Shown in pieces: positions 36,619-41,944 of a stretch of 64,000 nt of DNA (its first letter is position 1; every line of letters begins with the position of its first letter). The notes under the pieces are model-generated. The model saw only the letters and a list, made by a program, of their open reading frames with translations, searched no databases and was not told the DNA's origin. A program made the translations under genes and the position numbers. This stretch comes from Gemmatimonas sp. (GTDB taxonomy: Bacteria; Gemmatimonadota; Gemmatimonadetes; Gemmatimonadales; Gemmatimonadaceae): the NCBI GenBank assembly GCA_011390935.1, contig JAABRL010000012.1, positions 1 through 64,000 of the forward strand, given 5' to 3'.

Positions 36619-37440
36619 ATGCGCGTCAGCGTCCTGGGATCGGGCAGCCGCGGCAATGCGATCCTCGTGGAGTCGGGGTCCACGCGTGTGCTCGTGGATG
36701 CGGGCTTCGGCCCGCGCGCGCTGGCCACGCGTCTTCGTGTGCTCGGCTGCGCGCCGGAATCGATCACGGGCGTGGTGCTCACCCACGAGCACGTCGATCA
36801 TGCCTCAGGGGCGCTGGCCGCGTGCGCGCGCTGGGGGTGGCCGCTGTACGCCACCGCCGGAACGCTGGCGGCACTACCCGAGGCGATGGTACCGGTGCGC
36901 ACGATTGCACACGGGCAGGCGTGGAGCATCGGTGATCTTGCGGGACAGTCGGTGGCCGTACCACACGACGCCGCGGACTGCGCGGCGCTGCTGTTCGAGG
37001 ACCGGCGTACGGGCGAGCGGACGGGCATTGCACTCGACCTCGGGCACGTGCCCGCGCCGCTCGCTCCCGCGTTCGAGCGTCTCGACCTGTTGGTGATCGA
37101 GGCCAACCACGAGGTCTCGCAATTGATGGCTGGTCCCTATCCGTGGGCGCTCAAACAGCGTATTGCCGGGGATCGTGGCCATCTGTCCAATGCAGGGGCG
37201 GCGGCGCTGGTCGCGACGTGCGCGCACGCCGGCCTGCGTGGCGTCGTGCTCGCGCACCTGAGTGAGACCAACAACTCGCCGGCGCTGGCCGTAGCCTCGG
37301 TACATGCCGCATTGACGCGCCGCGGGCGAGCGGGGGCGCACACCAGCGTCCTGGCGGCGAGCCAGCGCTTTCCCCTGGGGCCGGTCTCGTCGCGGGGCGG
37401 CACGGCAGAGTCTTCTGTGCAGATGGAGTTGCGACTCTGA
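36619..37440 (+). CDS. YycJ/WalJ-like metallo-beta-lactamase fold hydrolase
   Basis: A 273-residue MBL-fold protein with GSGSRGNAILVES at the N-terminus, the metal motif THEHVDHASG, DLGH, EANHEVSQLM and VLAHLSETNNSP. This matches the YycJ (WalJ) family, a 5'-3' exonuclease-like group linked to mismatch repair and cell-wall signalling in Firmicutes. It starts 6 bases after the GlmU-like gene. Confidence 0.85.
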   Translation: MRVSVLGSGSRGNAILVESGSTRVLVDAGFGPRALATRLRVLGCAPESITGVVLTHEHVDHASGALAACARWGWPLYATAGTLAALPEAMVPVRTIAHGQAWSIGDLAGQSVAVPHDAADCAALLFEDRRTGERTGIALDLGHVPAPLAPAFERLDLLVIEANHEVSQLMAGPYPWALKQRIAGDRGHLSNAGAAALVATCAHAGLRGVVLAHLSETNNSPALAVASVHAALTRRGRAGAHTSVLAASQRFPLGPVSSRGGTAESSVQMELRL

Positions 37441-37534: not shown

Positions 37535-39214
37535 ATGCTCGATGCCACAACCCCCGCTGGTCCCCCGCGCCGAAGCCGCGCCCGAGCCGGCGACGCGCCA
37601 TCGGGACGCGCCGACGCGCCGCCGGGCGCTCCCGCGAGCGGCTCCGGCAAGGCGAGCCACTCGGGGCCCTCCTTCAAGGACAGCTGGCGCTACGACCTGC
37701 CGGCCTCGATCGTGGTGCTGCTGGTTGCGCTGCCACTCTGTCTGGGCATCGCGCTGGCGTCTGGCGCGCCGTTGTCAGCAGGGCTGCTGGCCGGCGTCAT
37801 CGGTGGGATCGTCGTCGGCTTGCTGTCAGACTCCGAACTCATGGTCAGCGGCCCGGCCGCCGGCCTGACCGCGATTGTACTCGCGGGCATCACGGCACTC
37901 GGATCGTTCCCCGCGTTCCTCACCGCCACCATCATCGGCGGCCTGCTGCAGGTGACGCTCAGCATCATTCGCGCGGGCGTCATCGGGTATTATTTCCCGT
38001 CGGCGGTGATCCGCGGTATGCTCGCCGGCATCGGTGTCATTCTGATCCTCAAGCAACTGCCGCATGCGGTCGGATACGACGCTGATTTCGAGGGTGACAT
38101 GTCCTTCGTGCAGGCCGACGGCACGAATACGTTCAGCGCTCTCGGGGAAGCGATGCGGCAGATTCAGCCCGGTGCGGCGCTCATCTGCCTGATCGCGCTG
38201 TTCATTCTGGTGTTCTGGCCCAAGGTGCCCGCGCTCAAGAAGTTGAAGCTGATGCCGGCTCCGCTCGTCGTGGTGCTCATGGGCGTGGGACTGAACGAGT
38301 TGTTCGACGTGATCGCGCCGGCCTGGGCGATTCGCGATACGCATCTGGTGCAACTCCCAGTGGCGGAGACCGCCAGCGACCTGCTCAACTTCTTCATCTT
38401 CCCCGACCTGTCCGCTTTGGCGAATCCCGAGACGTGGCGTCTCGGCGTGACGATCGCGATCGTGGCCAGCCTGGAATCGCTGCTCAGTCTCGAGGCGACG
38501 GACAAGCTCGATCCCTACAAGCGCGAGTCCGACACCAATCGCGAACTGCTCGCGCAGGGCGTCGGCAACACGATCTGCGGCATGGTGGGTGGCTTGCCCG
38601 TGACGGGCGTGATCGTGCGCTCGGCCGCGAACATCGACTCCGGCGGTCGGACGCGGTGGTCAGGCATCACGCATGGCGTGCTGTTGCTGGTCGCGGTGCT
38701 CACGATTCCGGCACTGCTGAACTACATCCCGCTGGCTGCGCTCGCCGCCATCCTGCTGCACACCGGTTACAAGCTGGCCTCGCCGGCGCTGTGGGCGTCC
38801 ACGTACCGCCTGGGATGGCAGCAGTTCACGCCCTTTGCGGTGACGGTGGTGGCGATCGTGCTCACCGACCTGCTGATCGGGATTGCCGTCGGCATGCTGG
38901 TGGGACTGTTCTTCATTCTGTCCGAGTACCTCCGGCAGCCCGCGCTCAACCGCGTGAGTTCGCCGGACTCGGTGCTTCAGCGCTACCAGCTGCCTGATCA
39001 GGCCACGTTCCTGAGCAAGGCCAACATCGAGCGCACCTTGGATGCCCTGCCAGCGGGCGCGCGCATCGAGATCGACGGACGCAATACCAAGCGGTTTGAC
39101 CACGACGTACTGGAGATCCTGCACGATTTCAGCAAGACCGCGGAGCTGCGCGGCATCGACTACCGGCTGGTTGGCGTTCCTTCGCCAGCGGCCCCTTCCC
39201 CAGGCGGGCACTGA
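37535..39214 (+). CDS. SulP-family anion transporter with STAS domain
   Basis: A 559-residue membrane protein of about 11-12 helices (VVLLVALPLCLGIALASGAP is the first SulP segment, followed by GLLAGVIGGIVVGLLS). A C-terminal STAS domain (about 470-555, RIEIDGRNTKRFDHDVLEIL) is present. SulP members carry sulfate, bicarbonate or other anions. Pairing with a carbonic anhydrase 3 bases downstream suggests bicarbonate, as in BicA-type uptake; this is inference. The first 50 residues are a Pro/Ala/Arg-rich cytoplasmic tail. Confidence 0.88.
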   Translation: MLDATTPAGPPRRSRARAGDAPSGRADAPPGAPASGSGKASHSGPSFKDSWRYDLPASIVVLLVALPLCLGIALASGAPLSAGLLAGVIGGIVVGLLSDSELMVSGPAAGLTAIVLAGITALGSFPAFLTATIIGGLLQVTLSIIRAGVIGYYFPSAVIRGMLAGIGVILILKQLPHAVGYDADFEGDMSFVQADGTNTFSALGEAMRQIQPGAALICLIALFILVFWPKVPALKKLKLMPAPLVVVLMGVGLNELFDVIAPAWAIRDTHLVQLPVAETASDLLNFFIFPDLSALANPETWRLGVTIAIVASLESLLSLEATDKLDPYKRESDTNRELLAQGVGNTICGMVGGLPVTGVIVRSAANIDSGGRTRWSGITHGVLLLVAVLTIPALLNYIPLAALAAILLHTGYKLASPALWASTYRLGWQQFTPFAVTVVAIVLTDLLIGIAVGMLVGLFFILSEYLRQPALNRVSSPDSVLQRYQLPDQATFLSKANIERTLDALPAGARIEIDGRNTKRFDHDVLEILHDFSKTAELRGIDYRLVGVPSPAAPSPGGH

Positions 39215-39217
39215 CGT

Positions 39218-39895
39218 ATGCAGCTGTTCCACCAACTGTTCGAGAACAACCGCCGCTGGGCGGAGGGTATGCGGGCGTCCGACCCCGAATACTTCGAGCG
39301 CCGCTCGGCCCGCCAAGAGCCGCATTTCCTGTTCATCGGCGGCCACGATTCGCGGATCCCGAGCGAGGCCATCACCGGCACCAGGCCGGGCGAAGTCCTC
39401 ATGCATCGCAACATCGGCAATCAGGTGCACCCGAGCGATTTCAACACGCTGTCCGTGATCGAGTATGCCGTGGAGCAGCTCGATGTCCGACACATCGTGA
39501 TCAGTGGCCACTACGGCTGCGGCGGCATCAAGGCGGCCATGGACGACATGGGGCATGGATTGCTCGACCACTGGCTGCACGTCGTTCGCGAGCTGCGCCT
39601 GCGACACGCCGATGAATTGAATGCGCTGTCAGACGATCAGTCGCGAGAAGATCGCCTCGTGGAGCTGAACGTGGTGAAGCAGGTGTTTCAACTCGCGCGC
39701 ACCCCGATCATTCAACGCGCGTGGTCACGCGGAAAGCGTCCGCTGATTCACGGTATGGTGTACGACGTGCACGATGGGCTGCTGCGACCGCTCGTCTCGG
39801 GGCTCTGCGATGCGGCGACGCTGGCGACGGCTCACACGAAGCCCGTCAAGAGCTACGTGAGCGAGCTCGTCCACGACGGCGACACCACCACCTGA
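39218..39895 (+). CDS. Beta-class carbonic anhydrase with altered zinc site
   Basis: A 225-residue protein that aligns without gaps to E. coli Can through residue 101. The zinc ligands His98 and Cys101 (SGHYGCGG, 96-103), Asp44 and Arg46 (HDSR) are kept. The first ligand Cys42 is Gly, and the next residue is His43 instead of Ser (IGGHDSRIP, 40-48). The family normally reads IGCSDSRVP. The reading frame is continuous around it, so this is a substitution. Either His43 replaces the cysteine ligand, or the protein is inactive or altered in substrate. It probably works with the SulP gene just upstream. Confidence 0.9.
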   Translation: MQLFHQLFENNRRWAEGMRASDPEYFERRSARQEPHFLFIGGHDSRIPSEAITGTRPGEVLMHRNIGNQVHPSDFNTLSVIEYAVEQLDVRHIVISGHYGCGGIKAAMDDMGHGLLDHWLHVVRELRLRHADELNALSDDQSREDRLVELNVVKQVFQLARTPIIQRAWSRGKRPLIHGMVYDVHDGLLRPLVSGLCDAATLATAHTKPVKSYVSELVHDGDTTT

Positions 39896-39913: not shown

Positions 39914-39960
39914 GTACGAAGAAGGGGCGCCCCAGTGGGGCGCCCCTTGATCGTTCGTAC
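39914..39960. terminator. Bidirectional hairpin between carbonic anhydrase and groEL
   Basis: A 12-pair perfect stem (AAGGGGCGCCCC, loop AGT, GGGGCGCCCCTT at 39922-39948) nested in an outer repeat (GTACGAA / TTCGTAC). It separates two convergent genes. No long T run follows on either strand. Confidence 0.7.

Positions 39961-39975: not shown

Positions 39976-41944
<1,969 letters not shown>

Follow-up and report, generated by a model that had tools for sequence, protein, structure and literature searches.

We found that one genus of the Gemmatimonadaceae (Gemmatimonadota) carries, encoded directly after a SulP-family transporter, a protein of the beta-carbonic anhydrase (beta-CA) fold in which the first zinc ligand, Cys42, and the residue after it have been replaced by Gly-His. 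The gene is a vertically inherited, in-place descendant of the SulP-linked clade-B beta-CA of the family; it underwent a burst of change on its stem branch and has since been under strong purifying selection. Judging from sequence, we tentatively favor, at somewhat less than an even chance, a protein of beta-CA fold whose metal site has been remodelled around His43 and/or Asp44 together with His98 and Cys101 and whose activity is altered or low. A close rival, in which the protein binds bicarbonate without zinc as a partner of SulP, explains the data almost as well.

Organization of the SulP-CA locus

The window, that is, the whole stretch of 64,000 nucleotides that was analyzed, contains the following features around the CA gene.

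36619..37440, plus strand: metallo-beta-lactamase (MBL)-fold gene, upstream, conserved neighborhood (by synteny; name by inspection)
37535..39214, plus strand: SulP-family anion transporter, 559 aa, first gene of a two-gene unit (PF00916, 5e-58)
39215..39217, plus strand: 3-nt gap between SulP and CA, SulP lying upstream (sequence)
39218..39895, plus strand: beta-carbonic-anhydrase-fold protein, GGHDSRIP variant, 225 aa (ORF with ATG start; Pro_CA PF00484, E=3e-45)
39341..39346, plus strand: codons GGC CAC, Gly42 and His43, in place of zinc ligand Cys42 and the next pocket residue (sequence)
39347..39355, plus strand: Asp44-Ser45-Arg46, catalytic Asp-Arg dyad retained (invariant in alignment)
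39356..39358, plus strand: Ile47, Val in all canonical homologs (alignment; PMC3230598)
39398..39400, plus strand: Leu61, Phe in all canonical homologs (alignment; PMC3230598)
39509..39520, plus strand: His98-x-x-Cys101, the remaining two zinc ligands, retained (sequence and alignment)
39509-39511, plus strand: His98 codon (sequence)
39518-39520, plus strand: Cys101 codon (sequence)
39845..39892, plus strand: C-terminal CA tail with a PVxSYVxExxH pattern, found in the GHD clade only (alignment; pLDDT below 50)
39922..39948, no strand assigned: terminator-like inverted repeat AAGGGGCGCCCC-AGT-GGGGCGCCCCTT between CA and groEL, which converge (read directly)
39976..41613, minus strand: groEL, downstream, conserved neighborhood (by synteny; name by inspection)

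The SulP-CA pair is flanked by a GMP / GlmU-like / metallo-beta-lactamase cluster and by convergent groEL-groES genes (names by inspection). The short gap between the two genes is conserved across the genus and in relatives with Cys-Cys-Asp (CCD) at residues 42 to 44. The C-terminal tail could possibly contact SulP or place an extra His near the site.

Replacement of the first zinc ligand and changes in the pocket

The Pro_CA model matched the 225-aa protein over the full domain with 155 bits (cut-off, 25.7). Residues 41 to 48 read G-G-H-D-S-R-I-P, where beta-CAs have GC[SAC]DSRVP, and the original prediction that Cys42 is Gly and the next residue His was correct. The alignment with E. coli Can that it described was also recovered (1i6o, query residues 6-202 to chain residues 6-201), and the spacing from residue 42 to residues 98 and 101 was identical to that of canonical relatives at the loci compared. 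Asp44, Arg46, His98, and Cys101, which had been called intact, were all kept in the alignment of proteins carrying Gly-His-Asp at residues 42 to 44 (GHD proteins); His98 and Cys101 form an HxxC motif within GHYGCGG. The second substitution had been described as Ser to His. The His stands, but in the nearest relatives this residue is Cys and not Ser (GCCDSRVP), so that, set against the sister clade, CC has become GH.

Comparison of 45 canonical homologs defined 37 invariant positions, each with at most one exception. Cys42 was present in 45/45 canonical rows, in which residue 43 was Ser, Ala, or Cys; Gly42-His43 was present in 5/5 genus genomes. Across all five GHD proteins, 34 of the 37 invariants were unchanged, and the three that changed were Cys42 to Gly, Val47 to Ile, and Phe61 to Leu. 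Gln33, Asp44, Arg46, Tyr83, His98, Cys101, and Gly102 were kept.

In the Coccomyxa CA (numbering +5), the pocket next to the zinc-bound ligand is formed by Ala48 (residue 43 here), Val71, Phe66' (residue 61), and Tyr88', with Phe66' being a wall of the CO2 pocket contributed by the partner monomer (PMC3230598). In the CAs of H. influenzae and E. coli, Val47 belongs to the noncatalytic bicarbonate site, which in clade B/type II enzymes is made up of Trp39, Gly41, Val47, Arg64, and Tyr181 (PMC3230598). The GHD CA keeps Gly41 and Arg64 and has Phe for Trp39 and Ile for Val47; its Tyr at 182 (query numbering) is a possible counterpart of Tyr181. As placed by the alignment, the fixed changes at invariant sites all surround the metal and the CO2/bicarbonate pocket, and the exchange of Phe for Leu at position 61 may leave space into which the side chain of His43 fits. 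Within the GHD clade, 141/195 columns (72%) were invariant, from which the probability of keeping six catalytic residues is roughly 0.14; their retention shows constraint as against neutrality and is weak evidence for metal binding in particular.

The AlphaFold2 model of the GHD protein, a monomer without metal, had a mean pLDDT of 82 and a pTM of 0.80 and resembled the E. coli, H. influenzae, and V. cholerae beta-CAs with TM scores of 0.86-0.89. A Foldseek search with this model returned beta-CAs throughout among the 50 matches listed. Confidence over residues 41-50 was similar in the GHD and CCD proteins (72 versus 75), and destabilization is therefore not indicated.

The GHD motif is genus-wide and arose once

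Orthologs were found in all five genus genomes (the window's included), those of the other four being 80-87% identical to the window protein; the congener Gemmatimonas sp. S07.Bin148 has an ortholog at 88% identity. Scanning with the protein by itself recovered the congener locus L032 and no other, and this locus and G145 were counted once. That GHD might replace CSD/CCD in a whole clade was borne out in 5/5 genomes of the genus, with a single origin. Close relatives do not all carry Cys42, as would be expected of a local mutation or an error; the motif is genus-wide.

Relatives outside the genus have GCCDSRVP (57-64% identical) or GC[SA]DSRVP. We scanned 395 genomes of the phylum with a DNA pattern for any Can-spaced beta-CA with a residue-42 codon not beginning with T, and it matched the four sampled genus members and one other genome (G259), where the match was a chance reading frame in unrelated sequence and not a beta-CA. 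No other Can-spaced beta-CA without Cys42 was found in the 395 genomes by this pattern, which excludes, and is blind to, Ser (TCN), Phe, Tyr, and Trp codons at position 42 and beta-CAs with other spacing. In viral contigs, a near-identical pattern found no beta-CA without Cys42, its four matches being chance reading frames. Relatives found in a plasmid search were all below 60% identity.

The gene order GMP-GlmU-like-MBL-SulP-CA-groEL-groES is common to the window and the canonical genomes G112 and G323, and G218 has the same flanking genes as the window except that SulP is missing. Because the flanking genes match on both sides, the CAs of G112, G323, and G218 are positional orthologs and not paralogs. 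In the CA tree, the GHD proteins formed one clade (100/100) that was sister to the CCD clade, with 99/97 support for the two together, and the SulP tree gave the same grouping. Orthology and tree topology therefore indicate that Cys42 was most simply lost once, in place, in a canonical SulP-linked CA. Elsewhere, one canonical CA (L102, G092:C24:46422-47012) has an ORF split by an in-frame TAA and is a pseudogene or an error, and in the assembly of G328 the SulP-CA locus occurs twice in nearly the same form, each time on its own contig (L072 and L073), perhaps a strain mixture.

The SulP partner is ancestral

The GHD CA lies beside SulP in the entire clade (5/5 genus genomes), and the SulP orthologs of the genus are 74-90% identical. 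The further notion that SulP marks the GHD variant was not upheld, since SulP also adjoins the CA in most relatives and the pair is widespread in the family and common to canonical Cys42 proteins; the SulP link is ancestral and not specific to the motif change. In several family members (L075 in G218, L084-L086, L099, and L101), the CA immediately adjoins the MBL gene, with SulP absent; the CA can therefore persist without SulP. The transporter matched the BicA model (NCBIfam) weakly, with 133 bits against a cut-off of 880, and also gave a weak match to the DauA model. From the properties of its family, we infer that it may transport bicarbonate (PMC6458275).

Other CO2-hydration systems

Neither a second beta-CA nor an alpha-CA was detected in the window's genome (92% complete), and no alpha-CA was found anywhere in the genus genomes. 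The window's genome has a homolog of DabA, the CA-like subunit of the DAB inorganic-carbon system (G000:C39:14779-17115, L130; PF10070, 833 bits; CxDxR intact). DabA is present in 3/5 genus genomes (the window's and two of the other four), and a second beta-CA of canonical sequence is present in the other four. An additional hydration system, DabA or a canonical beta-CA, was found in 5/5 GHD genomes versus about 10/16 canonical genomes, which is a trend only. On the same counts we rejected the idea that a spare system is exclusive to GHD genomes. For G112, G218, G338, G090, G236, and G029, the canonical Can-type clade CA was the sole beta-CA/DabA system detected. These small counts fit a CA that was freed from a role in bulk hydration. 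Looking for loss in place of the canonical paralog, we found nothing in the window's assembly that clearly corresponds to the region flanking this paralog in G145.

Moderate matches to the RuBisCO large-subunit family (133-175 bits) were seen in 4/5 genus genomes (G000:C40:12405-13238, L132, and also G145, G217, and G298), which could represent either a RuBisCO-like protein or true RuBisCO.

Selection history

Pairwise dN/dS within the GHD clade was 0.07-0.14, at pairwise dS values of 0.8-1.9. These ratios do not exceed those of canonical relatives and for the most part are lower than those of the adjacent SulP. On the stem branch, the ratio of CA to SulP length was 2.5 (5-95% range, 1.6-3.8), compared with 0.73 both inside the GHD clade and in the remaining tree; the stem ratio exceeded the rest in 100/100 bootstraps. 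A burst followed by renewed constraint is the prediction of a change in function or mechanism and not of decay. Because selection has been strong since the replacement, the GHD protein should still do something.

A proposed remodelled metal site and its alternatives

In the ancestor of the genus, Cys42 and its neighbor changed to Gly-His; along with them, Phe61, in the opposite wall of the pocket, became Leu, and Val47, at the bicarbonate site, became Ile. We propose that metal would still be bound through His98 and Cys101 plus His43 and/or Asp44, a residue that already serves as alternative fourth ligand when type II beta-CAs are closed, and His43 could project into the room freed at position 61. 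The result would be a slow or retuned enzyme for CO2/bicarbonate at the inner side of SulP, with bulk CO2 hydration left to the cell's remaining enzymes, DabA and/or a canonical beta-CA. Counting against a remodelled metal site, mutation of the zinc Cys in plant beta-CAs is reported to have abolished both zinc binding and activity.

The rival reading, which is plausible without being probable, is that the protein is a zinc-less pseudoenzyme that keeps its fold and oligomer, no longer hydrates CO2, binds bicarbonate, and would serve SulP as a sensor or regulatory subunit. The zinc ligand that is gone is one conserved in published surveys, Gly41 and Arg64 of the bicarbonate site are retained, and the SulP-CA pair has been held together with its short gap under strong selection; moreover, catalysis could be given up because all five genomes have another hydration system. 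However, His98, Cys101, Gln33, Tyr83, and Asp44-Arg46 are invariant across the dS range of the clade although a pseudoenzyme would leave them free to change, and the CA persists without SulP in the canonical relative G218.

Going further than the remodelled site that we favor, the protein could be an active, SulP-tuned enzyme with a rebuilt site, in which His43, shifted by one residue, would stand in for Cys42, the loss of the Phe61' ring to Leu would give it space, and the ligands would be His43/Asp44, His98, and Cys101; we regard this as rather unlikely. A change of substrate, in which the reshaped pocket and extra His act on a molecule other than CO2, is improbable. CS2 and COS hydrolases did arise from beta-CAs, and the pocket changes at 42, 43, 47, and 61 are coordinated and fall on one fast branch, but the SulP operon context is unchanged and, to our knowledge, substrate-switched relatives of beta-CAs keep the Cys-His-Cys zinc site. 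Relaxed decay of a redundant gene that is losing its function and is not yet lost could draw on the spare hydration systems and the long stem branch; it is contradicted by a dN/dS of about 0.1 after the change and by intact ORFs and conserved sites without further decay in all five genomes, and we consider it very improbable. A sequencing or assembly artifact, already doubted in the original prediction, has practically no chance of being correct, since, although all five assemblies are fragmented (60-410 contigs), GGHDSRIP occurs in five genomes of different species with different synonymous codons.

Class membership and relation to known systems

CxDxR and HxxC are described as conserved in all beta-CAs (surveys PMC6690855 and PMC2664464). 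The first zinc motif of the genus is GxDxR in 5/5 genomes, against the CxDxR of the class; having lost Cys42, the protein therefore fails a defining motif of the class while keeping the fold and ancestry. It also scored below the cut-off of the carbonate dehydratase equivalog PRK10437 (NCBIfam; 214 bits versus 251). On its sequence, it should be named a beta-CA-derived variant and not a beta-carbonic anhydrase. A search limited largely to the open literature yielded no description of a natural beta-CA that lacks the first zinc Cys. One feature used in defining the class is the Cys-His-Cys zinc site, which is regarded as universal among beta-carbonic anhydrases. With a ligand replaced in a positional ortholog, coordinated pocket changes, and continued selection, the GHD clade is a natural experiment on whether a zinc site can be rebuilt or beta-CAs can turn regulatory, and canonical sisters at 57-64% identity make the question testable with few point mutants.

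E. coli Can/YadF and H. influenzae HICA (clade B type II) are like the GHD CA in fold and active-site spacing, at about 42% identity, and have in common with it the Asp-Arg dyad, His98, Cys101, Gln33, Tyr83, and Arg64; the GHD CA differs from them in Gly for Cys42, His at 43, Leu for Phe61, Ile for Val47, and Phe for Trp39. SulP-linked and SulP-fused beta-CAs include the Rv3273 type, reportedly described by Felce and Saier in 2004. SulP-CA neighbors and fusions are known, and in can2-sulP of Acidithiobacillus ferrooxidans a clade-B beta-CA lies directly next to SulP, as it does here (PMC6458275). The CA partners in these systems are described as ordinary carbonic anhydrases, whereas the GHD partner is without one zinc ligand. 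Closer still are the SulP-linked GCCDSRVP proteins of sister Gemmatimonadaceae (G112, G218, G323, G135, and others), which, unlike the GHD CA, keep Cys42, Phe61, and Val47. CA VIII, X, and XI, which are related to the alpha class, are conserved, acatalytic proteins that have lost a zinc ligand; the GHD CA is like them in this loss and unrelated to them in fold.
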